Source: Rhodopseudomonas sp. AAP120
GTDB taxonomy: Bacteria; Pseudomonadota; Alphaproteobacteria; Rhizobiales; Xanthobacteraceae
Assembly: GCF_001295845.1 (NCBI RefSeq)
Contig: NZ_LJIC01000134.1
Coordinates: 1 to 42,335 of the forward strand
Length of the DNA stretch: 42,335 nucleotides
Reading direction: 5' to 3'
Shown: piece after piece, positions 144 through 35,827 of the stretch
How the letters are laid out: each line of letters opens with the position of its first letter
Position numbering within the stretch: the first letter of the stretch is position 1
Made by a program: the position numbers and the translations under genes
Notes under the pieces: model-generated
What the model saw: only the letters and a program-made list of their open reading frames with translations
Databases searched by the model: none
Told to the model about the DNA's origin: nothing

Positions 144-155
144 CGGAGGACGGTG

Positions 156-1454
156 ATGGCGCAGTCGCTTGATCTCAATGCCGGCGGACCCGCGCCGAAG
201 ATCCGTCGTCTTAACCGCCTGCCGGTCATCGCTGCGATCGTGTTTGTCGTGTTGTTCTTTGGCGTGATCCTCTATGGGCTCACGACGCGCGGATTGTATT
301 TCCGCGGCGATCGCGGTTCCGACGGTCCGCCATCGAGTCCCGCCTCGACCTACGCCGATGCGATGAAGCGCAATGTGCCAGACGGCATCATCGAGGACCC
401 GACGCCGGCGCAAGTCTTCCAGCCTGCGCCTCCGCCGGCGCCCGAGCGACCGGCGGCGAACCCGTTCACCCCCGCACCCCAGCCGGTGCGCGAGGGGCCG
501 GCGATCGAATCCGAGGAGGCCTGGCGCGCCCGCATCGAGCGCGAGCAGCGTGAGCAGTATCTGCGCGAGCAACACCGACAGCGCATGGCGCGCATTCAGG
601 CGCACAGTACCGCTTATGATTCACCGCTTGGCGTGAACCTCGCCAAGTTGCAGACCGCGACGCCCGCCGGGGCACAACAACAGCCACAACGGCCGGGAGC
701 CGCGAGCCCGCTTGGCAATGGGGGCGCGGCCGATCTTTACGCGGCCGCGCTCCGCGCCGGTTTGACCGGGCAGCCCATCGACCCGAACGGGCAGACATCG
801 AAAGAGAGCTTCTTCAACAGCGACCTCACCAAGCTCGGCTATCTGCCCAACTCCGTGGTGCCGCAACGATCGCCGTTCGAACTCAAGCGCGGCTCGGTCA
901 TTCCGGCGACTCTTATCACCGGCATCAATTCCGACCTTCCCGGGCGCATCACAGCGCAGGTGTCTCAAAACGTGTACGATAGCGCGACCGGCCATCGCCT
1001 GCTCATCCCACAGGGGACGCGACTGCTCGGGCGCTACGACAGCAAGGTCTCCTTCGGCCAGTCGCGCGTGCTCGTCGTGTGGACCGACATCATCCTGCCG
1101 AACGGCTCGACCTTGCAGATCAGCGGCATGGCCGGCACGGATGCGCAGGGCTATGGCGGCTTCAGCGACAAGATCGACCGCAAACTGCTGCAGACCTTCG
1201 GCTCTGCGATCCTGATCGCCTTGATCGGCGCCGGCACGGAGATGGCGATCCCGCGCGATCGTAATTCGTTCGGAATGCAGAACACCGCCGAATATGCGGC
1301 CCGGCGATCGTTTGCAGAAACTTTCGGACGCATGGCCGAGCGCACGATCTCGCGCAACATGGACGTACAGCCGACTTTGGAAATCCGCCCTGGATACAAG
1401 TTCAATGTCCTTGTCGACCAGGACTTGGTGTTTCCGGGGGACTATCGCCGATAG
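156..1454 (+). CDS. trbI: VirB10/TrbI-family T4SS inner-to-outer-membrane channel protein
   Basis: About 432 residues, the usual VirB10 length. A short basic N-terminus precedes one membrane segment (about residues 22-44), then a Pro/Ala-rich periplasmic linker with an Arg/Glu-rich coiled-coil-like stretch (about 120-150), then the conserved C-terminal beta-barrel domain. The domain carries typical VirB10 wording: KRGSVIPATLITGINSDLPG, LLIPQGTRLLGRYDSKVSFG, and the antenna-region segment LLQTFGSAILIALIGAG. VirB10 spans both membranes and couples ATP-driven steps to opening of the outer-membrane pore during conjugation. An ATG at 156 follows GGAGG with good spacing; a GTG directly before it is less likely. 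The gene is complete, but no virB11 follows, which is abnormal for this operon. Whether to call it VirB10 or TrbI is uncertain. Confidence 0.93.
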   Translation: MAQSLDLNAGGPAPKIRRLNRLPVIAAIVFVVLFFGVILYGLTTRGLYFRGDRGSDGPPSSPASTYADAMKRNVPDGIIEDPTPAQVFQPAPPPAPERPAANPFTPAPQPVREGPAIESEEAWRARIEREQREQYLREQHRQRMARIQAHSTAYDSPLGVNLAKLQTATPAGAQQQPQRPGAASPLGNGGAADLYAAALRAGLTGQPIDPNGQTSKESFFNSDLTKLGYLPNSVVPQRSPFELKRGSVIPATLITGINSDLPGRITAQVSQNVYDSATGHRLLIPQGTRLLGRYDSKVSFGQSRVLVVWTDIILPNGSTLQISGMAGTDAQGYGGFSDKIDRKLLQTFGSAILIALIGAGTEMAIPRDRNSFGMQNTAEYAARRSFAETFGRMAERTISRNMDVQPTLEIRPGYKFNVLVDQDLVFPGDYRR

Positions 1455-8514: not shown

Positions 8515-9795
8515 TCATTTAGAAAGTAAATTAAGCTCGGCCAATGCTGCGCTGTAAACGACGTCATACAGTTTGCACCCTGCCACTACGCTTTTGAGAC
8601 GTTCGCGCGCTTGATCGACTTGTCCGGCATGAACAATGGACTCGCTCAAGAAGAACTCAGCTTCGCACGCGCGCTTGGCTTGATCCTGGCCAGACCCGAT
8701 ACGGGATGCCGCCTGAACTTGCCCCGAATCGACCGCATCCAGATAATACTCGAGCATCGGCGCCGGCCACATGTCTCGCCTGACTTTTGCAGCGTTCTCG
8801 GTCAGCTCGGCGCGGTCATTTTCTCCACCGTGCACGCGAGCGATGTGGAGCCAGATCATCGCATATGGATTGGACGGCCGCAGACGCACCGCGGTTTTGA
8901 AATCCTCGACACTCGCCGTATTATCCCCGGCAAACAATCGGGCGCGTCCTCGACCGAGATAATAGGCTGGGTCTCCGGGAGCAAGTTGGAGCGCCTGATC
9001 GAAATCGGCGAGCGCCGCAGTAAAATTTCTTACTGTCAAATTTGCATTGGCCCGATTTGCCCAAAAGCTCGCGTCCCCCGGCCTAAGGCGGATCGCCGCG
9101 CCGAAATCTGCGATCGCCTTCTCAAAGTTTCCCAGCATCAGATGCACCGCGCCTCTGTTGCCGATTGCATCCGCAAACGTCGGCTGCAGTGAGATTGCCT
9201 GGTCGTAATCAGAAAGTGCTCTTTGTAGGTCGCCTTTCGTCAGAAAGGCGGCAGCGCGGTTGTAATAAGCTTCTGCGTAACTCGGCTGAAGGCGAACCGC
9301 CTCATCATAGTTTTCGATCGCTCGATCCAGATCGCCTTTTCTTTCGTAAGCGCCCGCAAGGTTGTTGAAAATCATCGGATCCCTGGGACTTAGTCGGCGC
9401 GCGCTAAGAAAGTCGTCGATGGCGCGATCGTATTCGCGCTCGAATGTCCAAATCAGGCCCCGGTAGATGTAGGAATTGGGAAAGTTCGGCAAAAGCGCTA
9501 TTGCAGTGTCGAAATCGGATAACGCTTTGTCGCTAATTCCCATGCCCTCGTAACATACACCTCGGCTGTAGACGAGGAAGCCGCGGCGCTCACTATCGAA
9601 ATTGCCCTGACGAATTGCCTCGCTAAAAAGCTGAATGGCTTGCACGCAATCGCGACGCTGCTTCGCTGCAAAACCAGCCTGTGCCAAATCGAGTGCGTCT
9701 GCCTTCGCCAAAGGTATTGCAGACAAAGTAATGAGCGTCACGAAAAGTCCGAACACCACCGGTGGGGCCGATTGTTTGGAAAGCGCCCTGAGCAT
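8515..9795 (-). CDS. Tetratricopeptide-repeat protein with N-terminal export or anchor signal
   Basis: About 426 residues from ATG at 9795 (an upstream ATG at 9831 adds 12). A hydrophobic segment (VVFGLFVTLITLSAIPLAKA) acts as a signal peptide or anchor, then at least seven TPR units follow (for example NNLAGAYERKGDLDRAIENY, YYNRAAAFLTKGDLQRALSD). The G/A/Y/P pattern and 34-residue spacing are clear from about residue 50 to 320. TPR solenoids bind partner proteins, so this is probably a periplasmic scaffold. The C-terminal 100 residues are non-repeating and contain cysteines. It is 144 bases upstream of the DUF2235 gene on the same strand, possibly its partner. No enzymatic domain is visible. 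Confidence 0.87.
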   Translation of the reverse strand: MLRALSKQSAPPVVFGLFVTLITLSAIPLAKADALDLAQAGFAAKQRRDCVQAIQLFSEAIRQGNFDSERRGFLVYSRGVCYEGMGISDKALSDFDTAIALLPNFPNSYIYRGLIWTFEREYDRAIDDFLSARRLSPRDPMIFNNLAGAYERKGDLDRAIENYDEAVRLQPSYAEAYYNRAAAFLTKGDLQRALSDYDQAISLQPTFADAIGNRGAVHLMLGNFEKAIADFGAAIRLRPGDASFWANRANANLTVRNFTAALADFDQALQLAPGDPAYYLGRGRARLFAGDNTASVEDFKTAVRLRPSNPYAMIWLHIARVHGGENDRAELTENAAKVRRDMWPAPMLEYYLDAVDSGQVQAASRIGSGQDQAKRACEAEFFLSESIVHAGQVDQARERLKSVVAGCKLYDVVYSAALAELNLLSK

Positions 9796-10433
9796 AAAAG
9801 CGACTGCCCCTAAATATAGCGAGATGTCCAAATATTAGCACACTTAGGCGCCAAATGCTCACGTTAAGGACATGCTGGCACCCCATGGTCGCAGTCGACC
9901 TGCTGGGAAGATGCGATCAGAGCCCCGCTGGGCAATTCTCTGATGTTGCGCTCATCTTCGGCCTCGGTATCAAGGAACGCTACCTTTTTAAGGGCGATCG
10001 GGCGTTGCCTTTGTACAGCACGCTCGTGAACCGCCATTTCACGCTGTATCACTCCTTTGATCGCCCACCCCCGGTGACGGGAGAATGTGACCATCACCGG
10101 TGCACAATATCACCTCATCCATTGCCCACACAACAGCGCAAGCCTGGCCAAACTGCCTGCACCGTCGCGCGGTCCGACACATTTACAACTGACTTTGCCA
10201 CCGAGTTAATGTCCTCCGTATCGGCACAGTCCCAATGCCCTGCTTTGCGCTGATGGAAGACCCACACAGCGCGGCTGTTTCACTTCCGTCATGAAACACA
10301 CGAGAACCGCCATCAGTCCAGATTGAATACGACAAAGAGATGAGGTGCGATGCACTGCGGCTCTGGACAGGCAGCTCCAAGCGCTTCGAAGGTTTTGTCT
10401 GTGCTGCCATTCTCGACTTCACAGCCCGATTTA
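9796..10433. other. Gene-poor stretch between the TPR and flavoprotein genes
   Basis: About 640 bases with no convincing gene. Open frames at 9855-10253 (+), 9864-10097 (-) and 10183-10422 (-) give low-complexity proteins with no recognisable family and no good ribosome-binding site. It probably holds the TPR promoter and decayed sequence. No repeat or terminator stands out. Confidence 0.5.
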
Positions 10434-11369
10434 CTACTGGCGCGTTAAGCCGTCTAGATTGCGCAGATCGTTGTGCAGCGTCGTGGCGGCGATTGCCGCG
10501 TGGCCCATCGCGACGCTGATCTGATCGAGCGCGAAGACGATGTCGCCTGCGGCGTAGATGCCGCCTCGGCTAGTGCGTTGCTTTTGATCGACCGCGATAC
10601 AGCACCCATCCGCCATGTCGAGACAGAGCGCCTGGGCAAGATGGTCGTTCGCTTCGGAACCAAGCGCCGGATAGATGGTGTCGAAGCTGAGCTGCGAGCC
10701 GTCGCGAAAGTGAACTATCGCGCGACTACCGGTGCAATCGAGGCGCAAGGGCGGTCGTTCTTCCACGCGGATACCGTGGCGTTCGAGAAGGGCGCGGTCG
10801 TCGGAGCTGATATCGACTGCACCCGCCGGGAGTATGGTAATGTCTTCGGAATATGTTCGCAGGAACAAGGCTTCAGCGACGCCCCGCGCATCGGCGCCGA
10901 TAACACCGATAGCCTTGTCCCCGGCCTCGAAGCCGTCGCAGACCGGACAATAGCGCAGCAGACCGCGCTCCAGCGCAGACCGATGCATAGCGGGATCGAG
11001 GTCCGGGCGCCGGTTGTTGGTGCCGGTTGCCAAAAGAATGGTTCGCGCTTCGAGCGCGATGTTGTTACCACACGCCAGAAAGCTGCCGTCCCGCTCCTCG
11101 ATCGTCTCGATACGGCCCCGCAGCACTCCGGCACCGTAGAGCTCCGCCTGAGCGCGCATACGACTCAACAGCTCCTTGCCGCTAATTCCGTCGGGAAAGC
11201 CGGCATGGTTGTGTGAACGGGGTATCCAGAGTGCGCGGCTGTCGCCGTCGTCCACTACGGTGACGCGTCGCCGGTACCGCGCCAGATAGATCGCAGCAGT
11301 CAGGCCCGCAGGGCCCCCTCCAACAACGAGGCAATCGAGCGGACGGCCAGTTGACAGGATTTCATCCAT
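10434..11369 (-). CDS. Thioredoxin-reductase-like FAD/NAD(P) oxidoreductase
   Basis: 311 residues from ATG at 11369; the frame is open to 11687, but that extension overlaps the upstream hydrolase gene. An FAD-binding GGGPAG lies at about residues 17-22 ([20 protein letters not shown]), a redox-active pair CPVC at 141-144 ([12 protein letters not shown]), and the C-terminal FAD motif GIYAAGDIV at about 272-280. This is the domain order of low-molecular-weight thioredoxin reductase. The pyridine-nucleotide loop is [11 protein letters not shown] at about 157, where the second glycine of GxGxxG is Asp, so NADPH use is not assured. No thioredoxin gene is adjacent. It lies 52 bases downstream of a persulfide-dioxygenase-like gene, which suggests a shared role in sulfane-sulfur or thiol redox chemistry. 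Confidence 0.9.
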
Positions 11370-11421
11370 CACGGTGTCCCGTGTATTTGGGGCGGTGGAA
11401 GCCACGCTCGGGCGGTGGCGG

Positions 11422-12294
11422 CTAGAGAGCACTGACCGGAACATCAAGCGGCATCGGCAGAATGACCCGCCCGTTACTTGCGGGCTCCGGGAAGCGCCCA
11501 GCCGCGATGTTGAGCGGCAAGGATGCGAGCAGGAGCGCTGGCATTTCGAGCCCGGCATCGCGCTCCTGCCGCAGAGCGATGAACTCCGCTTCGGTCCGCC
11601 CCTTGCCGACATGAATATTTTCGGCCCGCTGCGCGCCCACTGTGGTTGCCCAGGCGGGCGGGCGGCTGCCCTCCGCGCCGTAATCATGGCAAACGAACAA
11701 GCGTGTCTCTTCGGGCTGATCGAGGATACGACGGATCGAAGAATGGAGCATGCGGGCGTCGCCGCGATGGAAGTCGCAGCGCGCCGTTCCGCTATCGGGC
11801 ATGAAGAGCGTGTCGCCCAGAAAAATCGTGTCGGCGATGCGATAGCTCAAATGGTCGATCGTGTGCCCCGGCGTCGCCCAAACCTCGATCGTCTCTTCGC
11901 CAAACCCCAGGCTGTCGCCTTCATCCAGCAGACGGTCGAACGGACGTGCATGCGTTTGCGGCAGGGCATAGACTTGGCGAATAACTTCGGCGACCTCCAC
12001 AACGCGCTTGCCGATTGCCAGTCGGCCGCCGAGCGTTTCACGCAAGGCCAGGGCGCCGGAGATGTGATCGTGATGAACATGGGTCTCCAGAAGCCATTCC
12101 AGTGACAACTTCTCGGCCCTTATGAAATCCACGATACGGTCAACGGGAGCGCGGCTGGTACGTCCCGACTTTGGATCTAGATCGAACACTGGATCGATGA
12201 CAACACAAGAACCGGACGCAGCGCATGTGACAACATGCGTTGCGGTGCCACTGCGCTGATCGTAAAAGGTCTGGACACTGATAGTCATTGCCAC
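11422..12294 (-). CDS. Metallo-beta-lactamase-fold hydrolase, ETHE1/Blh-like (probable persulfide dioxygenase)
   Basis: 290 residues. The metal-binding motif THVHHDH lies at residues 71-77 (His72, His74, Asp76, His77), then His144 ([11 protein letters not shown]), Asp161 ([12 protein letters not shown]) and His203 (CHDYG), the full set for this fold. The pattern GDTLF...GTARCDF...CHDYG and the tail [14 protein letters not shown] match the ETHE1/Blh branch, which oxidises glutathione persulfide with a mononuclear iron and is often controlled by BigR or CstR repressors. No such repressor or rhodanese is seen here. It is first of a two-gene unit with the downstream flavoprotein. Glyoxalase II is the main alternative and fits less well because of the GTARCDF region. 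Confidence 0.85.
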
Positions 12295-13208
12295 CTATCC
12301 GTTATGGGTTCACGACTTGACCTGCGTCACCGCGATAAGCTAGCTTGGCCTCAAGGGCGCCCGCCGGAAATTTCATGCACACCGCGTTTTGGGACCGACC
12401 CGTGTAACGTAATCTCTGTCGCCAGTTAATAGTCCTCGCAGCAGAATGTTTCGAACATAATCCAACGAATTTACCACACCAAGTTGTCCTGAAACTTGTC
12501 TCGCGCTTACCAAAAAAGATTGGTAGAGCTTCACGGAGGGGTCTCGCTCGTATGGCGATGGATGATGCGCACTGCCCGGGTAGTCGCCAGTCACCGTCGT
12601 GACGGTGGAGCGCTTCGACTTCATCCCGCAGGGCTGCGGTGATGCCATCATGACGCACTGATGCCTAGGCGAAGCGGCCAAGGTAGCGTTGATCGAGGAA
12701 TTAATCCGGCGTCTCACGGGCTCGATGTCTTACGATGTCCCTGTATAGCAGCTGGGCTATTCGCTAGCCTAGACTAGATTCCCGCCCGGTGACGAGACGG
12801 GTTCGGGATTGCCGCCGGACAAAGTTGCGAATGACGGACAAGAGCGAATCGCCAATGATGGACGGTGCCCAACTTGACCACCTTCGGTGGGCGGCCATCG
12901 ACGACATCATCACGTAGAGAGTCTTCAAGCCATCGGAGCAGAACGGGTTTGGCACCATTGTCTCATGCTGAAGACAATGGCTGCGTCGTCGCCTACCTCA
13001 TCAGTGCATGGCTAGCAAATGTGTGGCGAGCGCGCGGTAGGCTTGATGGGGAAGAGCTTAGCAAACAAGTTCGATCATGTTCTGTATGATCTTCGACAAG
13101 CAAGGACAAGTCGGCAGGGCGAGGGTGAGCGGCAGCGCACCAGATGGCCCGTCGAGCCCTGCCATTCCAGCGCTGTTAGACAACGAAGATAAGCCGGCTC
13201 CGGCGCAA
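12295..13208. other. Gene-poor, probably decayed stretch
   Basis: About 900 bases without a convincing gene. Frames at 12302-12658 (-), 12373-12717 (-), 12764-12958 (-) and 12865-13089 (+) overlap each other and show no known family. A 48-codon + frame at 13046-13192 has a plain start but no recognisable character. A small perfect dyad ACCGTC-GT-GACGGT lies near 12593-12606. The stretch looks like accumulated remnants of accessory genes. Confidence 0.5.
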
Positions 13209-13439
13209 CTAAGATCCGCCGAACCGTTCCCTTACAGTCTGACGCAACACGCCAAGCTTGTCTCTGATCTTTGCCCAACTGACCTCTCGATGGCGGAGGG
13301 TGTCGACTATTTCGCAAGGTGGTCGCGGTGCGCCTCGGCCGTGGCGTTGAGCGATCCAGGAGCAGCGAGCAGACGGTGAGTAGACGAAATCCTTTGGCAA
13401 TGTAGCTTGGCCCCACATGAAAAGCTGGCAGGCCTCCAC
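13209..13439 (-). pseudogene. Remnant of a ClpX-type zinc-finger/HTH protein (copy 1)
   Basis: A 76-residue frame with GTG at 13439. It keeps the C-terminal part of a small protein of which a second copy lies at 24431-24775: a VEACQLFMWG segment, then a helix-turn-helix-like IVDTLRHREVSWAKIRDKLG and an ending RQTVRERFGG. The N-terminal CxxC half of the ClpX-like C4 zinc finger is missing; upstream codons in this frame show no cysteine pair. The family normally reads like CSFCGKSEREV...ICDACVEAC plus the HTH. It is therefore a 5'-truncated relic. The two copies share clear DNA similarity over about 140 bases. Confidence 0.6.
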
Positions 13440-13555: not shown

Positions 13556-15085
13556 TCAAGACCCGACTATCAGAATATCGCCAGCACGTGCCGCATAGTC
13601 GAGCGCGTAGGCGAGCTCGCCGGGTGTCTCGGCGTGGACATGAAAGAGCGGCTGTCCGCGATCAACCTCCGCGCCAAGCCGCACCTCCATGAAGACGCCG
13701 GCAGCCTTGGCGCCGGGCGCACCGGCCAGCTTGGCAAGCCGCGCTAGTTTGCGATTGTCGATATGAACGATTCGGCCTGCGCGCGGCGCAACCAATGGAT
13801 AGACGTGGCGCGCCTGCGGCGGAGTGCGCAGTCCGCCCTGCGCCTCACAGATGGCTTCGAACTTCTTCCACGCCCGGCCGTCGGAAAGCGTCGCGAGCGC
13901 CAGCGTCACGCCGCTTCCCTTGCTGGCCTTTCCGCCAATTTCCAGTGCCGCGCCCGCCAGCGTGACAGCTCGCTGGCGCAGGTCATCGGGCGCGTCGGAT
14001 TTGTTATGCAAAACGGCGAGCACATCGAAGGCCTCGAGCGCCGGACCGATGCCACGGCCGACGGGCTGCGAGCCATCGGTTTGAAGGCATATGGCGGCAA
14101 GGTTAAAGCGCGCAGCCACTGCGGTCATGCGCTCGGCAAGGCGGTCAGCGACGTCTTTACCGCGCACCTTCGCGGTTGTGCCGACCGGGATATCGATGAC
14201 CACGTGTGTCGAGCCTGCAGCGATCTTCTTCGAGAGGACGGACGCAATCAACTGACCTTCAGTATCGATATCCAGTTCGCGCTCCACCCGCACGAAGATA
14301 TCGTCGGCCGGGCTGAGGTGGACCGCACCGCCCCAGGCAATGCAGCCCCCTTCCGCCTCCACCACGCGTCGGAGAGTCGCGATGTCGAGATCGACAGGCG
14401 CCAAGGTTTCCATCATATCGGCCGTACCGGCCGGCGAGGTGATCGCGCGCGAGGAGGTCTTGGGCATGACGAGGCCGTTCGCGGCCACGATCGCCACGAC
14501 AATCGGCGTGGTGCGGTTGCCGGGAAGCCCGCCGATGCAGTGTTTATCGACCACGATCGCGGCATCCCAGCGCAGGCGGTCGCCGACATTCACCATTGCC
14601 CTCGTCAGACTAACCGTCTCCTCTTCGTCCAGCGGCAGCGCGGCGCTCGCGGTCAGGAAGGCGGCGAGGTGCACGTCGGTGTAGCTGCCGGCGACAACAT
14701 CCCTCACGATCTCCGAGAAGGCGGACGTATCCAGACGATTGCCATAGATACGCCGCCGCACATCAGCGAGCGAATCCATTGCGGGTGGATGGGAGACCCT
14801 GACCTCGTCGCCTTCCGCGACGCCAAGAAGGTCCCAGGCGGTTTCGGACAGTCCGATCTCGTCGAGGCCCAGCATGGCTTCACCGTCGACTTGAAAAAGA
14901 GTCGCCTGGACCTGGCGCTTGCCATTGGCCACGAGAACCTGAGAGCGCGAAGCAAATCCCTCGGCCCGGCAGACGTGACAGTCGGCACGCATGATTACGA
15001 TCGCCTGATGCTGGCTATGCAGCCGGAGACGGCGTACACGGTGCCTTGGTTGATCGGCACGAGCAGCGTTATCTGTCGTCGTCAT
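13556..15085 (-). CDS. AMP/thymidine phosphorylase, archaeal-type (type 2) family
   Basis: 509 residues from ATG at 15085, which overlaps the TGA of the upstream RNase-like gene as ATGA and so implies translational coupling. An extra N-terminal domain of about 100 residues precedes the phosphorylase core, as in the roughly 500-residue AMP phosphorylases of archaea; classical DeoA is about 440. The core has VVDKHCIGGLPGNRTT (178-193) and the family signature SSRAITSPAGTADMMETL (211-228), both in the type 2 wording. Archaeal AMP phosphorylase splits NMP plus phosphate into base and ribose 1,5-bisphosphate; other members act on thymidine or uridine. Which substrate applies here is not decidable by eye. 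It is last in the operon with prs-like, phosphoketolase-like and beta-CASP RNase-like genes, a context that favours nucleotide degradation. Confidence 0.9.
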   Translation of the reverse strand: MTTTDNAARADQPRHRVRRLRLHSQHQAIVIMRADCHVCRAEGFASRSQVLVANGKRQVQATLFQVDGEAMLGLDEIGLSETAWDLLGVAEGDEVRVSHPPAMDSLADVRRRIYGNRLDTSAFSEIVRDVVAGSYTDVHLAAFLTASAALPLDEEETVSLTRAMVNVGDRLRWDAAIVVDKHCIGGLPGNRTTPIVVAIVAANGLVMPKTSSRAITSPAGTADMMETLAPVDLDIATLRRVVEAEGGCIAWGGAVHLSPADDIFVRVERELDIDTEGQLIASVLSKKIAAGSTHVVIDIPVGTTAKVRGKDVADRLAERMTAVAARFNLAAICLQTDGSQPVGRGIGPALEAFDVLAVLHNKSDAPDDLRQRAVTLAGAALEIGGKASKGSGVTLALATLSDGRAWKKFEAICEAQGGLRTPPQARHVYPLVAPRAGRIVHIDNRKLARLAKLAGAPGAKAAGVFMEVRLGAEVDRGQPLFHVHAETPGELAYALDYAARAGDILIVGS

Positions 15086-16440
15086 AGATCGAAGATCTGG
15101 TTCTGACGTGGCACAGCGGCATCCCACCCAAGTTCGCGATCAATCCGCACCCGCAGCGCTTCGGCGGCGTCGGCCTCGCCATGGACGATGAAGACGCGAG
15201 ACGGAGCGCGGCGGAAGCCGGAGAGCCAGCGCATCAGCTCGCTAGCATCAGCGTGTGCCGACAGCATCGACAGGTCATCGACCTCTGCCCGAACCGGCAC
15301 CCATTGGCCATGGATCCTGATGTCGCGCGCGCCCTGAAGCATCGCTCGGCCTCGCGTTCCAGCGGCCTGGAACCCGGAGAACAGGATCGTGTGCTTGGGA
15401 TCGGTCGCGAAGGCCTTGAGGTGATGGAGAACACGGCCTCCCGTCGCCATCCCGCTCGCCGATATCACGACCTTGGGCCAGGGGCTGGTCGAGATCGCCT
15501 TGGAGCTTTCCACATCGCGTGTATAGGTGGCGATGCCGCAGATCGCGTCGCATTCCTTGGAAGACAAGTGGTGATCGTCGTGGTGGGCGTGGAGCAGGCC
15601 TGTCGCCTCGATCGCCATCGGGCTGTCCAGATAGATCGGGACGCCCGATAGACGGCCGGCGGTCTGCAGGCGCCACAGATGATAGAGCAGCGACTGTGCG
15701 CGCCCGACCGCAAAGGCCGGGATGACGACGGTGCCGCCGCGCTTGATGGTGCGCTCGATGACCTTGCCGAGCGCTTCGGTGGGATCGGCAGAATCGTGGA
15801 GGCGGTTTCCGTAGGTCGATTCAACGACGACGTAATCTGCTTCGGCGATAGCTGCCGGGTCCGGAAAGATTGGGTCGCCGTAGCGGCCAAGGTCCCCTGA
15901 AAAAGCAATGCGGCGGCCGCCCCATTCGATCTCGGCGCTGGCGGCTCCGAGGATGTGGCCGGCGTAGCGAAACCTCACGGTCGCACCACCTGGGAGCGTC
16001 GTGACCGTGTTAAAAGGAACAAGCGAAAAGAACTCCATGGCGCGTTCGGCATCACGCGCGCCGTACAGCGGCAGCGCCGGCTTGTGTTTGGAGAACCCTT
16101 TCCGATTGGCGTACTCAGCGTCCTTCTCGTTGAGGTAGCCGCTGTCCTTGAGGATGAGCTCTGCGACATCGCGTGTCGCCGCGGTCGCGTAGATGCGGCC
16201 ACGAAAGCCGTCACGCACGAGCTTGGGTAAGTAGCCCGAGTGATCGAGATGAGCATGGGTCAAGACGACGGCATCGATGCTCGACGGCGCGACCGGCAAC
16301 GGTTCCCAGTTCAGCTCGCGAAGGTTCTTGAGGCCTTGAAATAGACCGCAATCAATCAAGATGCGCTTGCCGCCGTTGGTGAGGAGATGTTTCGAGCCGG
16401 TGACAGTGCCGGCGCCGCCGAGAGAGGTCAGAGTCAACAT
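15082..16440 (-). CDS. Beta-CASP metallo-beta-lactamase RNase (CPSF73-like)
   Basis: 452 residues from ATG at 16440, nine bases after the phosphoketolase-like stop. The lactamase core has THAHLDHSG (His62, His64, Asp66, His67), a downstream YAGHILGAAS and FSGDLGRYGDP. The beta-CASP insert follows: VVVESTYGNRLH (motif A Glu), the nucleotide-handling region ISASGMATGGRVLHHL (motif B), and FIVHGEADAA (motif C His). This full motif set defines the CPSF73/aCPSF/RNase J superfamily of zinc-dependent RNA endo- and 5'-exonucleases. No KH or other RNA-binding extension is present, so it is the short bacterial form often annotated only as an MBL-fold protein. Its last bases overlap the AMP phosphorylase start, suggesting that products of RNA cleavage feed that enzyme. 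Confidence 0.9.
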   Translation of the reverse strand: MLTLTSLGGAGTVTGSKHLLTNGGKRILIDCGLFQGLKNLRELNWEPLPVAPSSIDAVVLTHAHLDHSGYLPKLVRDGFRGRIYATAATRDVAELILKDSGYLNEKDAEYANRKGFSKHKPALPLYGARDAERAMEFFSLVPFNTVTTLPGGATVRFRYAGHILGAASAEIEWGGRRIAFSGDLGRYGDPIFPDPAAIAEADYVVVESTYGNRLHDSADPTEALGKVIERTIKRGGTVVIPAFAVGRAQSLLYHLWRLQTAGRLSGVPIYLDSPMAIEATGLLHAHHDDHHLSSKECDAICGIATYTRDVESSKAISTSPWPKVVISASGMATGGRVLHHLKAFATDPKHTILFSGFQAAGTRGRAMLQGARDIRIHGQWVPVRAEVDDLSMLSAHADASELMRWLSGFRRAPSRVFIVHGEADAAEALRVRIDRELGWDAAVPRQNQIFDL

Positions 16441-16449
16441 TGCGAACTT

Positions 16450-18819
16450 TCAGAATGTGAAGGCGGCCAAATCCGCCGGATCGCCGCGTCCGTCGAGCGC
16501 GCCTTGCTCGGTCGAGGAGAGAATCTCCTCGCGCTTGCAGCCGAGGAGAGCGCCTCCCGCGTCCACCAGATGCGCCCAGCTACAGCGGTTAGCGAACAGC
16601 ATGCCTGCAACGTCGAGCGTGCCGCCCCGGCTGATATAGCCGCGCGCGACAGTCCTTTGAGGCCCGGAGTCGAGCCGCCGCAACAAGCCGAGCATTGGTT
16701 CCGGTCTCGCGTGAGACACGATGACTCGCGGCAGCCCGGCCGGGAACAGCGCCGCAATATCCTGCTCGCTAGCTGTGAAGGCGGCTTCAATGGAATCGCG
16801 GGGGATTCGGAATCGGCCAGGTTCCGAGAGAGCGGTTACGAGAACGCGGCGGCCGTGCGTCTTGAGGCGATGTGCTGCCTTGAGCGCCTCCTCGAGCTGG
16901 TAGGCGCCGATGGCAACCAGTTGCAACTCGGCCCCGTCGCGCTCGCCTTCGATGTGAGCGGCGCCATCGGCAATGAACTTGAGCGCAGCCTCGCCACCGA
17001 AGCGATACGGCATGTCGCGCTTCGACACGATGAGGCAGGCTACCTGTCCGCGACCCTGGTAGACGGCTCTCAGGGCGGCCATGGCGCTGTTGGTATCCAC
17101 GGGGAACAGAACGCGTGCCGTGTCGGACATCTCGCCGAGCAGCGCCTCGCCAATGGTCGGGTCCTGATGCGACTGCTCGTTTTTGGAGTTCTCCCAGGTA
17201 TGAGACGTGACGATGAGCGGGACGGATACCCAACCCGGCTTCTGGCCGACCTCACGCTGGCGACGGGCGAAGACGATCTCCTGGCGAAGCCCGCCCAACA
17301 TCTTCAAGGCGAAAGCCTCGTAGCTGACAATCAGGTTGATGCCTCCCTTGTTGGCGAGCGCCGCGCCCGCAACCGCTTCCTCGTTGAGCGCGGTGATGAC
17401 CGCCCCATCCACGGCATCGGCGACGTTGGGCTCCGAAACGTTCACCCGGTGGCGCAACCTGTCGAGGGTTGCACCCATATGGTTTGAGCGCAGTTCGTCG
17501 GGGTTGCCGACACGGGGCCGAAGGCCGGGGTTCGCATCGACGAGGCGGACGAACCAGCGGTCGATAGCATGCATCGCGCAGTCGGGCGGACTGCCGGCTA
17601 CGGTCCAATCAGGTTCGGGGAGTACTGGAGTCGGAGGCCGCCGCAGCGCGAGGGGGTGCCGGCTTTCGGGCACGCGGCCTTGCTTGCCATGGACAGCGAT
17701 CGCTGCGACGGCTTGCTCAATCTCGTCAGGCGGCACGAACAGCACGCGGGCCGCATCGTTGAAGGCGGTACGGGCTGCTTCGTCCTGCGCGGGATTGCCA
17801 CCGAGCGGCAGATTGTGCGCGGCATTCGTGCCCGCTCCCGGAAAGCCGAACCCTTTGACGGTTTCGGCGATCACATAAGGAACCGGCGCCGGATAGGAAT
17901 GCGCCGCTTCCGCAGCGAAACTCTGGAGTCGGCGCTCGGCTTCTAGAATGGCCCCTGCGAAGGCGGCTGGATCGCGGCCATCGACGATGAAGGGATCAAA
18001 GCCGTTGAGCTTGAGATGGTCGGCGAGCCATGTGGCGCCACCCTGCTGCGCGATCTGGACGCGCTCTTCGATACGCCGCCCGTTGAGGATCATGACCGGG
18101 ATGACATGGCCGGAATCTTCGGCCCGCCACCAGCGAGGCGTCCAGTCCGAACCGCGCTGTTCCTCGAATGCGCCGTCGCTCAGGAACGCCACGAGGCTTT
18201 CGCCGGGGAGCGGCATGTGCACGTACTGCACCTCCGCGAAGCCGAGATAACCGCCTTCGGAGATCGCGCCGGCGGTATTCGGTCCTGCGTGGCTGCCGAG
18301 CGGTACGGCCGGAGCGCCGTCGGGGCCGATCTTGTATGAGTAGAAGTCGGCGGCGAGTTGCGACAATCCCTTCTCGCTGCGATCGTAGCGGCCCTTCTGC
18401 GCCGGTGAGACATCGCCGGTGAGGACGTTGACGGCCTCGATAGCGGCAACACAATGGCCTTGGCCCATCAGCCAGGAACGCGTCGTCGCTGAAATCGCAT
18501 TGGCCGTCAGATAGCCGACAAAAGCCGGGACCATGTTGAGCGAGCCGCCGGTATGTCCTTCCGGGGTGGTCTTGAAAGCGTCCGCCGGGAGCGGGGCGCC
18601 AGAGAGATCGACCCGCTTGGTGTAGGTCATATGGACCACGCTCCACATGGCGGCGGAGGTGAGGCGGTCGGCAGCCACCAGCATCCGATAGAGCGGTTGC
18701 GGATCGATGCGGCCGGACGAAGCCAGCGCCACTATGCGCTCGACCGTCTCTTCACGATGGACAATCGGGCCGTATCCCTTGCGCCAAGTGTTGAACATCT
18801 TGGAAGCCGTGCCGCTCAT
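16450..18819 (-). CDS. Divergent phosphoketolase-like thiamine-diphosphate enzyme
   Basis: 789 residues, the normal phosphoketolase length. Family landmarks are EGHTGGSLNMVPAFVGYL, GQGHCVAAIEA, SEGGYLGFAEV, a thiamine-site DG...N pattern (SDGAFEEQRGS through VMILNGR), HNLPLGGNP, a Glu-bearing ITALNEEAVAG and NEQSHQDPTIG. Phosphoketolase cleaves xylulose 5-phosphate or fructose 6-phosphate with phosphate to acetyl phosphate plus an aldose phosphate. Several positions differ from Bifidobacterium-type enzymes: GYSLSHA is GFAEVQY, so one active-site His is lost, and GDGEAETG is SDGAFEEQ. It therefore belongs to a side branch and its exact substrate is open. It is second in the operon, 46 bases after the prs-like gene, with acetate kinase (truncated) elsewhere in the block. 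Confidence 0.87.
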   Translation of the reverse strand: MSGTASKMFNTWRKGYGPIVHREETVERIVALASSGRIDPQPLYRMLVAADRLTSAAMWSVVHMTYTKRVDLSGAPLPADAFKTTPEGHTGGSLNMVPAFVGYLTANAISATTRSWLMGQGHCVAAIEAVNVLTGDVSPAQKGRYDRSEKGLSQLAADFYSYKIGPDGAPAVPLGSHAGPNTAGAISEGGYLGFAEVQYVHMPLPGESLVAFLSDGAFEEQRGSDWTPRWWRAEDSGHVIPVMILNGRRIEERVQIAQQGGATWLADHLKLNGFDPFIVDGRDPAAFAGAILEAERRLQSFAAEAAHSYPAPVPYVIAETVKGFGFPGAGTNAAHNLPLGGNPAQDEAARTAFNDAARVLFVPPDEIEQAVAAIAVHGKQGRVPESRHPLALRRPPTPVLPEPDWTVAGSPPDCAMHAIDRWFVRLVDANPGLRPRVGNPDELRSNHMGATLDRLRHRVNVSEPNVADAVDGAVITALNEEAVAGAALANKGGINLIVSYEAFALKMLGGLRQEIVFARRQREVGQKPGWVSVPLIVTSHTWENSKNEQSHQDPTIGEALLGEMSDTARVLFPVDTNSAMAALRAVYQGRGQVACLIVSKRDMPYRFGGEAALKFIADGAAHIEGERDGAELQLVAIGAYQLEEALKAAHRLKTHGRRVLVTALSEPGRFRIPRDSIEAAFTASEQDIAALFPAGLPRVIVSHARPEPMLGLLRRLDSGPQRTVARGYISRGGTLDVAGMLFANRCSWAHLVDAGGALLGCKREEILSSTEQGALDGRGDPADLAAFTF

Positions 18820-18865
18820 GCTGCATCGTCGCCTTTATTGGATCTGGTTTCGGGAGGCGGCACTT

Positions 18866-19897
18866 TCACCGCGCCCCGCTCGTCCAGGATGGCGGATCGC
18901 TCGCGGGAAAGGAATCGAGACCCGCCCGCTCCACCTCATCCAAGGGCTCGGGCGGACGCCGGTGCCGGACGAGGTCTGCCGACGATGGAGCGCTCAATCC
19001 GAGCGCGTTCGCAACCAGCGGCGCAAGGCCGATGGCATTGCTCTCGTGAGGAACAGAATCTGTCGAAACGATCCGGCCGCAAAGCGGCGCAAGGCGCTGG
19101 AAAGAATCTTCGGCAAAAATGCCATGCACAACGACCACCACGGGTCGCGCAAAGCCTTGAAGCGGAAGTTTGAGAGCCGCTTCGATCAGCGTGCGGCCGG
19201 ACGAGGCGATGTCATCGACCAGCACCGGCTGCCGGCCACGCCATCTGGACAGATCGGGTAATTCGACGTCGACATTGCGATCGCCATGCCGGATCTTGCG
19301 CAGCACCGCGTGTGGGGCGCCAATGCGTGCGGCGATGGCCGATACCCATTGCTCGCTCTCTTCGTCGGGACCGACGAGAAAAGGATTGTCGACTTCCGCG
19401 GCAATCCAATCCGCCAGCAGCGGCGCCGCATGCAGCGTATCCGTCGGGATCGTGTAGAGCGCCGAGAGAGTCGAATATCTATGCAGATGCGGATCGACGG
19501 TGACCAGCCGGTCGAAGCTCGACGAGACGAGCCGCGCGAAGCTCTTCGACGTCACCGCCTCACCCGGCTGAAAACGGCGATCCTGCCGCATATAAGCGAG
19601 ATAAGGCGCGATCAGAGTGACCTCTCGCGCGCCGAGCGCCCGCGCGGCATCTGCCGCGAAGACAAGACGCAAGAAGCCATCATCGGGCCTTGCGAGTGTG
19701 CAGACCAGATCGACCGCTTTGCCTGCAACGTCGGAAAGGATACGGACGTAGGACTCGCCATCCGGAAATTGCCGGGTTCCTATTGTGCCGAGCTCCCAAT
19801 GCCCGGCTGCTGCCAGATGCTGCCCAAAGGCTTCGTTGCCCGGCAGGGAAAGGATCAGGCGAGGAGCAGATCCCGGATGGTCTTGTTTTTCTGTCAT
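18866..19897 (-). CDS. Ribose-phosphate pyrophosphokinase-like protein, archaeal-like
   Basis: 343 residues. An N-terminal phosphoribosyltransferase-like half (TRQFPDGESYVRI, YLAYMRQDRRFQPGEAVTSK) is followed by a second half with FLVGPDEESEQW and the PRPP-binding loop VLVDDIASSGRTLIEAA. The second half, with LRKIRHGDRNVDVEL before the loop, resembles the class III enzymes of methanogens more than the housekeeping bacterial Prs. The enzyme interconverts ribose 5-phosphate plus ATP with PRPP plus AMP. A C-terminal extension of about 30 residues ends SFPASDPPSWTSGAR, a tail I have seen on unrelated stress proteins of soil Proteobacteria. As the first gene of the operon it may run in the direction that disposes of, rather than makes, PRPP; this is inference. 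Confidence 0.85.
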   Translation of the reverse strand: MTEKQDHPGSAPRLILSLPGNEAFGQHLAAAGHWELGTIGTRQFPDGESYVRILSDVAGKAVDLVCTLARPDDGFLRLVFAADAARALGAREVTLIAPYLAYMRQDRRFQPGEAVTSKSFARLVSSSFDRLVTVDPHLHRYSTLSALYTIPTDTLHAAPLLADWIAAEVDNPFLVGPDEESEQWVSAIAARIGAPHAVLRKIRHGDRNVDVELPDLSRWRGRQPVLVDDIASSGRTLIEAALKLPLQGFARPVVVVVHGIFAEDSFQRLAPLCGRIVSTDSVPHESNAIGLAPLVANALGLSAPSSADLVRHRRPPEPLDEVERAGLDSFPASDPPSWTSGAR

Positions 19898-20049
19898 CCT
19901 TCCTCGACTCTAGAATTTGCCGAAACTGGGTGATGGCTACCCCAATCATGCCGCCGGTCACTCATTTGCGACAGTGGAATTACCACAAGGCAGTGGTTCA
20001 AGATATGACTGGGATCATTCCAGAGCGCGGCCGGAGCGATAGCACTTAC

Positions 20050-34341: not shown

Positions 34342-35038
34342 TCATGAAGGATCTTTCCTAATGACCTGGAGTGTGTGAAGGGCGATCATGCGCTCTTCAT
34401 CGGTGGGTATGACGAGGATTGCTACGGGGCTGTCGGGCGTCGATATCCGCAGAGCGCTGTCGCGATTGGTCGCCTCGTCGATCCGAAGGCCAGCCCAAGC
34501 GAGCCGGCCGCAGATCCGGTGGCGCACATCGGCGTGGTTCTCGCCGATGCCGGCGGTGAACACGAAGGCATCGAGTCCGCTGAGCGAGGCGATGAGGCCG
34601 CCCGCCTCACGCGCTGCCCTCCAGCAGAAAAGTTCGATCGCTTCCTCGGCCTCGGGGCCGCCACTAGCCGATAATGTGCGCATGTCACTGGAGATTCCAG
34701 ACACGCCCAGCAGCCCCGACTTCCGGTAGAGGAGATCCTCGACCTCCGCCGCGGACATTCCGAGCTGCGTCTGGAGATGAAGCACAACGCCGGGATCGAT
34801 GGCGCCGCAGCGGGTTCCCATCATGAGCCCGTCGAGCGCGGTGAAGCCCATGGTGGAGTCGATGCTTTTGCCGGCGCGCATCGCGCACAGGCTGGCGCCG
34901 TTGCCGAGATGAGCCGCGATCACCCGGCCGGCAGCGAGCACAGGATCAATCTCACGCAGGCGCCGCGCGATATATTCGTATGACAGACCGTGGAAGCCGT
35001 AGCGCCGAATGCCCTGCTCATGGAAGGCGCGCGGAAGG
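34342..35038 (-). pseudogene. ackA: Acetate kinase, 5'-truncated at the breakpoint
   Basis: The last 230 or so residues of acetate kinase (about 400 in full) are intact: [63 protein letters not shown] and [11 protein letters not shown]. The frame runs to 35079, but codons beyond about 35038 belong to the traG side. The missing N-terminal third carries the ATP/acetate-fold start (LVLNAGSSS), the catalytic Arg corresponding to Arg91 and the Asp corresponding to Asp148 of the Methanosarcina enzyme, so this copy should be inactive. Acetate kinase makes ATP from acetyl phosphate, the product of phosphoketolase found in the same block. It sits upstream of the export operon on the same strand. Confidence 0.85.
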
Positions 35039-35042
35039 GGCA
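35038..35042. other. Breakpoint joining ackA and traG head to head
   Basis: To the left, - strand codons read as acetate kinase up to LPRAF (about 35037). To the right, + strand codons read as TraG from SFVKEN (about 35042). Both genes lack their 5' parts. No insertion sequence or long repeat was recognised at the join. Confidence 0.75.
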
Positions 35043-35827
35043 GCTTCGTGAAGGAGAATGTCGCCTCGTTCGTCAACATGACACCCGAGACCTTCAGCGG
35101 CGTCTATGCCAATGCGGTCAAGGAGACGCATTGGCTATCTTATGAGAACTATGCGGCGCTGGTGTCGGGCCGCAGCTTCTCGACCGACGAGCTGGCGGCT
35201 GGAACGATGGATGTGTTCATCAACGTCGACTTGAAGACGCTGGAGAACCATCCGGGGTTGGCGCGCCTCATCATCGGCTCGTTGATGAACGCGATCTATA
35301 ACCGCGCGGGCGCGGTGGCCGGCCGCACGCTGTTCCTGCTCGATGAAGTGGCGCGGCTTGGGTTCCTGCGCGTCCTCGAGACCGCGCGTGACGCCGGACG
35401 CAAATATGGCATCACCCTTCTGATGCTGTTCCAGTCGATCGGCCAGATGCGCGAGGTCTATGGCGGCCGCGACGCCGCATCGAAGTGGTTCGAGTCGGCG
35501 TCCTGGATGTCGTTCAGCGCGATCAACGACCCCGAGACCGCCGAATACATCTCGCGGCGCTGCGGCGACACGACGGTCGAGGTCAGCCAGATCAGCCGCA
35601 GTTCGCAGGCCTCCGGGTCGTCGCGGACGCGCTCGCGGTTGCTGTCACGCCGGCCGCTGATCCTGCCGCACGAGATCACGCAGATGCGCGGCGACGAGCA
35701 GATCGTGTTCACGGCCGGCAACCCGCCGCTGCGGTGCGGACGCGCGATCTATTTCCGGCGCAAGGACATGACCGCCTGTGTTGCCAGCAACAGGTTCGCG
35801 CCCACGGGCGGGCGGCGATCGGCATAA
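35042..35827 (+). pseudogene. traG: VirD4/TraG coupling protein, 5'-truncated
   Basis: About 260 residues corresponding to the C-terminal half of a VirD4-type coupling ATPase. Seen are [20 protein letters not shown], then DVFINVDLKTLENHPGLARL, the Walker B-type LFLLDEVARLGFLRVLETAR, LLMLFQSIGQMREVYGG, and the end LRCGRAIYFRRKDM. The membrane anchor and Walker A half are missing, cut off by the breakpoint. Coupling proteins bring the relaxosome to the secretion channel, so without them the element cannot transfer itself. The frame continues upstream by chance through acetate-kinase DNA to 35009, so a short fusion product is possible but should not work. The following nuclease gene matches the usual neighbour in this ICE type. 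Confidence 0.87.

Follow-up and report, generated by a model that had tools for sequence, protein, structure and literature searches.

The window analysed here, a 42,335-nucleotide contig of Rhodopseudomonas sp. AAP120 (NZ_LJIC01000134.1; contig 40 of the 6.16 Mb genome, referred to as G000), carries on its minus strand an operon of four genes coding for a phosphoribosyl pyrophosphate (PRPP) synthase-like (prs-like) protein, a phosphoketolase-like protein, a beta-CASP RNase and a phosphorylase, for which we use the short names PRSL, XFPL, RNASE and PHOS:

18866-19897, minus strand: PRSL, 343 amino acids, first gene of the operon; PRPP-synthase-like (NCBIfam PRK07199), proposed ribose 1,5-bisphosphate (R15P) phosphotransferase
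16450-18819, minus strand: XFPL, 789 amino acids, divergent phosphoketolase family
15082-16440, minus strand: RNASE, 452 amino acids, beta-CASP RNase of the TTHA0252 kind
13556-15085 (counted from ATG), minus strand: PHOS, 509 amino acids, archaeal-type nucleoside monophosphate (NMP; AMP) phosphorylase

By open reading frame (ORF) reading, 46 bases separate PRSL from XFPL and 9 bases XFPL from RNASE, and RNASE and PHOS overlap by an ATGA at 15082-15085. The initial annotation of this DNA had read the four genes as a pathway from RNA to ATP; its gaps and overlap agree with the ORF coordinates, and its four family assignments are upheld by Pfam and NCBIfam profile matches. Over 22.4 kb the window matches Rhodopseudomonas pseudopalustris DSM 123 (L062) at 99.7% DNA identity, and the phylum and class named for the genome samples below are taken from this match.

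The four-gene grouping is not due to chance. At least 572 relatives of XFPL were found in a scan with each species represented by a single genome, and in 46 of the best 80 loci, which were kept (L034-L113), all four genes lie in one run, defined as genes on the same strand with gaps of at most 400 bases. The order is that of the window in 42 of these runs, XFPL-RNASE-PHOS-PRSL in three and RNASE-PHOS-PRSL-XFPL in one; since the order changes with the genes still together, this argues for a shared role. At the other 34 loci, some of them on contigs that end early, we found XFPL-RNASE-PHOS (13), XFPL-RNASE (10), XFPL alone (5), PRSL-XFPL-RNASE (2), PRSL-XFPL (2) or a fullest run without XFPL (2). 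The joint conservation on which the initial annotation had staked its proposal is thus real, and the counts are to be read as non-independent, because the 80 loci belong in part to shared islands, favour close relatives and count a few genomes twice.

An evenly drawn sample of 229 genomes of the phylum Pseudomonadota reveals where the core of the system lies. With a cut of 377 bits, set at a gap in the scores (the next match reaches 125 bits), PHOS is found in 27 genomes at 29 places, and PRSL above the PRK07199 cut-off likewise at 29 places, in the same 27 genomes (hypergeometric probability 1e-35, the kinship of the genomes being ignored). The two genes share one same-strand run at all 29 places and are direct neighbours at 27; in the window and at locus L024 they stand at opposite ends of a four-gene run. 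RNASE belongs to the PHOS run at 13 of the 29 places and XFPL at four, and the commonest form, at 15 places, is PHOS-PRSL without either of them. In this sample PHOS-PRSL is thus the core and XFPL an occasional addition; in one genome (G076) the PHOS-PRSL pair is followed on its strand, some 0.8 kb further on, by an ordinary phosphoketolase gene. The genome of the window itself has a second operon:

L023 (G000:C79:66000-85000), 9490-13276, plus strand: PHOS-PRSL-RNASE without XFPL

All 27 genomes encode an ordinary PRPP synthase as well, and PRSL is therefore an extra. In a sample of 385 genomes of the class Alphaproteobacteria, PRSL was detected in 32 (E 1e-70; 30 above cut-off) and PHOS in 59 (E 1e-100; 57 above cut-off), and PHOS is present in 31 of the 32 PRSL genomes, the exception (G272) being below the PRSL cut-off.

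PHOS matches PRK04350 with 673 bits (cut-off 434) and is 40% identical (183 of 453 aligned positions) to the AMP phosphorylase of Thermococcus kodakarensis, an enzyme described in excerpts of PMC8376864 as phosphorolysing NMPs to base and R15P. Two signatures picked from an alignment with the T. kodakarensis enzyme, GGxPG[NR][KR]T and SSRAIT, are found in 86 and 87 of 88 PHOS rows, respectively, and in none of 11 deoA rows obtained from 12 fetched loci. Three deoA signatures looked for were absent from all 88 PHOS rows, by which a deoA-type nucleoside phosphorylase is ruled out for PHOS; the score of PHOS against the deoA-type thymidine phosphorylase model TIGR02643 is 127.3 bits, below the cut-off of 570.7. 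The archaeal-type AMP/thymidine phosphorylase of the initial annotation thus has the active-site signatures of the archaeal NMP enzyme, and PHOS is probably an NMP phosphorylase. Its expected product would be R15P and not PRPP, so that a PRPP synthase run backwards, which had been proposed as the link between the phosphorylase and the prs-like enzyme, does not connect.

PRSL itself is the best candidate for the step beyond R15P, for which the initial annotation had found none, in view of its coupling to PHOS and of an altered loop. It matches PRK07199 with 428 bits (cut-off 322), and 87 of 108 loci gave a PRSL sequence; with one (L082) dropped by length and that of the window added, the alignment holds 87 rows, 79 of them distinct, and was compared with all 27 ordinary PRPP synthases from these genomes without any motif-based choice, a 23-row subset giving the same result. 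PRSL keeps the adenine-site residues Phe44/Asp46, Arg104-Gln105-Asp106, His137, the catalytic Lys201/Arg203 and the ribose-phosphate motif Asp228-Asp229...Thr236; Phe44, Asp46, Arg104, Asp106, His137, Asp178, Lys201, Arg203, Asp228, Asp229 and Thr236 are invariant in the 87 rows, as in nearly all ordinary ones. The loop beside the Mg-binding aspartate reads SPDxGG(..R) in 27 of 27 ordinary PRPP synthases, whereas it is GPDxE(...W) in all 87 PRSL rows. All 87 have Glu180, Trp184, His139 and Arg140, where the ordinary enzymes have Gly (27/27), Arg (27/27), Gly/Thr/Asp and Gln (26/27), respectively. In the E. coli PRPP synthase, according to the parts of PMC9232217 that deal with the active site, Asp170 holds the Mg on the C1-C3 hydroxyls of ribose 5-phosphate and Arg99 touches the beta phosphate of ADP. 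In our own alignment Asp170 corresponds to Asp178 of PRSL, the D of the loop motif, and the Arg99 position is variable in PRSL (Arg in 39 and Lys in 26 of 87 rows). Because a carboxylate (Glu180) is placed beside the pyrophosphate-building site, together with the invariant His139 and Arg140, these differences suggest that the usual handling of PRPP does not apply to PRSL.

Known users of R15P are scarce in the 27 PHOS-PRSL genomes. R15P isomerase (TIGR00511) does not exceed the curated cut-off in any of them, weaker IF-2B relatives being found in 17, and is thereby ruled out as the general next step; no search was made for Rubisco. PhnN is above cut-off in five of the 27. From its residues and its partner, we would give even chances to PRSL acting on R15P.

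XFPL is a divergent member of the phosphoketolases. It shares with the xylulose 5-phosphate/fructose 6-phosphate phosphoketolases the Pfam domains XFP (133 bits against a cut-off of 22) and XFP_N (49.6 against 23.7) but reaches at best 135 bits with the NCBIfam phosphoketolase models, below every one of their cut-offs (777 to 1518), and with 23-28% identity to the usual enzymes it forms a separate family; a phosphoketolase of the usual kind is also present in the same genome (G000:C135). We compared 97 rows of XFPL with 14 of ordinary phosphoketolases, duplicates of proteins from the window being among them, two of 98 sequences having been dropped by length and the metal aspartate not being counted. 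Ten of the 13 active-site residues listed in the consulted part of PMC10547157 are kept, namely His64, His97, His142, Gly155, Ser440, Glu479, Tyr501, Asn549 and His553 in all 97 rows and His320 in 96, whereas Gln546 is replaced by Asn and His548 by Lys in all 97 and Gln321 by Asn in 95. Among the kept residues are all six to which passages of PMC6435721 assign the dehydration and phosphate-attack steps (His97, His142, Gly155, His64, Tyr501 and Asn549). Glu437 is kept and Arg442 varies. The placement of the 13 residue numbers on the XFPL motifs is our assumption, as is the role of Lys605, likewise kept, which we take to be an active-site residue. The phosphoketolase-like enzyme of the initial annotation finds some support in these kept residues, but belongs to a family of its own. 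On the simplest reading, XFPL would have an altered sugar pocket and still form acetyl phosphate, and we think it likely that acetyl phosphate is what it makes.

RNASE has Beta-Casp and RMMBL domains (Pfam), and its best solved relative is Ribonuclease TTHA0252 (E 4e-80), with Cas14 likewise among the top solved structures. The closest NCBIfam model is that of the type VII CRISPR protein Cas14 (NF045584), with which it shares the beta-CASP fold; the match spans model positions 3-426 of 612 and scores 380.7 bits, below the cut-off of 800, aCPSF1 giving 263 bits. As a side observation, the bacterial RNASE family may by its sequence lie near the ancestor of Cas14. Among 20 further PHOS loci fetched from the class sample (from 18 of 28 genomes without PRSL, plus G388 and G480), RNASE is the immediate same-strand neighbour of PHOS at nine, seven of which are from genomes lacking PRSL, and the RNase-phosphorylase pairing is therefore a link of its own. 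That RNASE supplies the NMPs has, in our view, a slightly less than even chance.

A connection with low oxygen comes from Bradyrhizobium diazoefficiens, whose bll3117-bll3116-bll3115 is by product names PHOS-PRSL-MBL (metallo-beta-lactamase), the same form as the second operon (L023) of the genome studied here (product names as given in sections of PMC6515984 and PMC9104804). PMC9104804, in the portions consulted, gives these genes as a predicted operon with a FixK2 box, expression of bll3115 and bll3117 being lowered 30.6-fold and 6.6-fold in a fixK2 mutant, and PMC6515984 includes all three genes in its tabulated expression data, at protein and gene level, for microoxia. This operon has no XFPL, and the phosphoketolase-acetate kinase pair bll2518-bll2517 is described as a separate FixK2 unit; the portions consulted propose no function for the three-gene operon. 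A survey of 107 upstream regions detected a perfect FNR-type box (TTGA-N6-TCAA) in seven, with none in shuffled sequences, and a box with one mismatch in 16 more, where 6.85 were expected from a crude control of shuffled two-base blocks. Four of the seven perfect boxes are from Achromobacter, two of these at loci without PHOS in the run. The second operon (L023, C79) has a perfect box, TTGACCACGGTCAA, about 124 bases before its first match, and a palindrome precedes PRSL in the window:

20005-20018, minus strand: ATGATCCCAGTCAT, FixK/FNR-like palindrome, two mismatches from TTGA-N6-TCAA, about 108 bases before PRSL; found by eye, weak

Given the published FixK2 control of the three-gene form, the oxygen limitation invoked by the initial annotation finds support, and a role of the operon at low oxygen is rather probable.

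The most likely reading is that the RNA-to-ATP idea survives in outline and that its missing step is done by PRSL. The reactions that we infer from gene structure, conservation, coupling and residues would run as follows. RNASE would help to degrade RNA to 5'-NMPs, and PHOS would convert NMP and phosphate into base and R15P, a chemistry known for the archaeal relative. PRSL would then convert R15P and AMP into ribose 5-phosphate and ADP, or R15P and ADP into ribose 5-phosphate and ATP; this most likely reaction for PRSL would by analogy be that of PRPP synthase run backwards minus the outer phosphate, and would conserve N-glycosidic bond energy. From 2 ADP, adenylate kinase could make ATP and AMP. 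An isomerase and an epimerase of the housekeeping kind, which we assume, would lead to xylulose 5-phosphate, and XFPL, to judge by its kept residues, or an ordinary phosphoketolase where XFPL is absent, would form acetyl phosphate and glyceraldehyde 3-phosphate. Acetate kinase would finally yield ATP. Under low oxygen or starvation, the operon would thus act as a module channelling ribose from RNA-derived nucleotides into fermentation, a view that we hold as tentative. Transfer of the phosphate to AMP or ADP by PRSL, argued by analogy, is possible but doubtful; that PRSL would moreover be a new enzyme, an R15P:AMP (or ADP) phosphotransferase which together with the NMP phosphorylase would save the bond energy as ADP or ATP, we regard as somewhat less probable still.

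The acetate kinase copy in the window had been given as broken in the initial annotation, which is correct, but the proposal does not depend on it:

34342-35079, minus strand: acetate kinase, C-terminal fragment, not required by the proposal

In the family model the fragment matches positions 162-393 of 396, and compared with a second acetate kinase it again corresponds to the C-terminal part. AckA is encoded by two copies above the family cut-off elsewhere in the genome, by which the fragment is ruled out as a required part. The remnant adjoins HlyD and RbbA-type transporter genes.

Several points weigh against this reading. Under standard conditions both phosphorolysis and glycosyl-phosphate transfer to AMP or ADP are uphill, and the pathway therefore needs a pull. 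The PHOS-PRSL link is not obligate, since 28 of the 59 PHOS genomes of the class have no PRSL at E 1e-70, and in five class genomes (G288, G388, G438, G441 and G480) the two are on separate contigs. PHOS stays below the equivalog cut-off of the AMP phosphorylase model TIGR03327 (AMP_phos; 470.8 against 535 bits), PRSL passes the broad PRPP-synthase model TIGR01251 (191.3 bits, cut-off 113), and the genome of the window is among the five with PhnN, an enzyme that could convert R15P into PRPP. XFPL proper (from about 802 bits upwards; the next match has 94 bits) occurs at 10 places in nine of the 229 phylum genomes; PHOS is absent from six of the nine (G023, G058, G062, G138, G146 and G174), in four of which a more distant RNase gene adjoins XFPL in divergent orientation, and XFPL is absent from 24 of the 27 PHOS genomes. 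XFPL is thus optional, which speaks against one fixed four-gene pathway. Relatives of the RNase (E 1e-80) are found at 41 places in 37 of the 229 genomes, 13 of them in a PHOS run and four beside XFPL; being mostly away from both, the RNase family has other roles. Adenylate kinase is near only two of the 80 named loci. The operon of the window, finally, has only the weak FNR-like site ATGATCCCAGTCAT, which is absent from the matches at one mismatch or fewer.

It could also be that the core pair works in the opposite direction, in base salvage. PRSL would produce either PRPP or R15P (the latter with ribose 5-phosphate and ADP or ATP as substrates), and PHOS would join free bases to R15P, rebuilding NMPs, so that bases would be rescued and ribose would not be burned. 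Phosphorolysis has its equilibrium on the side of synthesis, PHOS-PRSL with neither RNASE nor XFPL in the run is the commonest form, and the archaeal enzyme is thought to run both ways (statement in part of PMC9700705). However, the RNase and phosphoketolase partners, the AckA and Pta neighbours and the low-oxygen induction fit breakdown better, and an ordinary PRPP synthase is already present in all 27 genomes; salvage is in our estimation rather unlikely.

Another possibility is that there is no common pathway and that four separately useful low-oxygen or stress genes have come under one FNR-type promoter on mobile islands. Partners are indeed swapped in and out, metal and stress genes often adjoin, and DNA is shared across genera: a Roseiarcaceae genome (L034) is 96.3% identical to the window over 22.4 kb (window 6460-28820), and a stretch of about 15 kb is common, at 96% identity, to Thauera, Variovorax and Betaproteobacteria bacterium SCN1. 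XFPL was also found in 15 of 72,556 plasmid records, 10 of the 15 typed as conjugative. A TrbI conjugation gene lies at the start of the window (153-1454) and, together with the identity to the Roseiarcaceae genome, suggests a mobile island. Nevertheless, PHOS and PRSL lie in one run at every place and occur in an identical set of 27 genomes, which the sharing of islands by itself hardly explains, and the genes stay together through reshuffled orders, which makes a mere assembly of unconnected genes unlikely. Least probable, and improbable by our estimate, is that PRSL is a true PRPP synthase running backwards (PRPP + AMP to ribose 5-phosphate + ATP), as initially annotated, or makes PRPP for a PHOS akin to nucleotide pyrophosphorylases, since, although PRSL passes TIGR01251 with its ATP and ribose residues kept and PHOS is by profile match distantly related to anthranilate phosphoribosyltransferase, an enzyme that uses PRPP, the loop that is constant in ordinary PRPP synthases is changed in every PRSL, and PHOS resembles an enzyme that uses phosphate and gives R15P.

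Breakdown of RNA-derived ribose by way of PRSL, the reading that we prefer, has partial counterparts in Archaea. The NMP shunt, or pentose bisphosphate pathway, of Thermococcus (NMP phosphorylase, R15P isomerase and form III Rubisco) likewise opens with the formation of R15P by a phosphorylase of the PHOS family; here, in contrast, a PRPP-synthase-like partner takes the place of an R15P isomerase, and the four-gene form has a phosphoketolase where the shunt has Rubisco. The non-carboxylating pentose bisphosphate pathway of haloarchaea likewise has R15P as a node of ribose breakdown without Rubisco, but it employs an R15P isomerase, a RuBP phosphatase and an aldolase, families to which none of the four genes belongs (pathway as outlined in sections of PMC9700705). 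In the open-licence full texts searched, an assigned function for this gene set was not found, and among the matches listed for low-oxygen loci none contained a phosphoketolase. The Burkholderia lxa locus combines a metallo-beta-lactamase protein with a phosphofructokinase, and neither phosphoketolase nor phosphorylase turned up in a term search of PMC6127331. There is a real and widespread module, linked to low oxygen and built around an NMP phosphorylase. Archaeal-type NMP phosphorylases are present in 27 of the 229 phylum genomes, yet the known R15P users searched, R15P isomerase and PhnN, are found in none and five of these, and PRSL, the constant run partner with an altered loop, opens the fate of R15P in these bacteria to a direct test with a single purified enzyme. 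If the proposal is true, RNA turnover would be joined to ATP supply under oxygen limitation, and bacteria without oxygen could burn RNA for ATP at two points, the PRSL step and acetyl phosphate. It would also correct the current labels ribose-phosphate pyrophosphokinase, thymidine phosphorylase family protein and xylulose 5-phosphate 3-epimerase; the last is given to XFPL in 14 of the 15 plasmid records, and titles and abstract openings retrieved under that phrase apparently contain nothing on the XFPL family.

Around the 28 PHOS loci whose neighbours were clustered, 18 groups are present at three or more loci, the largest at seven. One protein each from 10 of the 18 was compared with NCBIfam; six matched (a peptide-type binding protein, RlmD, a histidine kinase, an HflK-like protein, MnmA and an ABC transporter) and four did not, so that a recurrent isomerase or phosphatase is possible in the eight groups left out. 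In some genomes of the class, PHOS is held in a heat-shock gene group, behind hrcA-grpE (L190 and L193, the grpE of L190 by reading only) or before dnaK (L190 and L197), with dnaJ near in L196. Recurrent neighbours at the best 80 XFPL loci, named from one representative per group or from likeness to proteins of the window, are a heavy-metal P-type ATPase (36), AckA (27), an RbbA-type ABC protein (21), a type II glyceraldehyde 3-phosphate dehydrogenase (17), enoyl-CoA hydratase/Pta (12) and a polyhydroxyalkanoate (PHA) synthase (11). The archaeal-type dehydrogenase (for example L101, 5454-6563) would take the other product of a phosphoketolase. Arginine deiminase pathway genes are near few of the 80 loci (ArcA two, ArcC four). 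On a Rhizobium rosettiformans plasmid (L180, NZ_CP032407.1, 1280-14262), the four-gene operon is preceded by genes of arginine deiminase, carbamate kinase, ornithine carbamoyltransferase and adenylate kinase, with universal stress protein and metal ATPase genes in between, and a similar gene set is present at L047.

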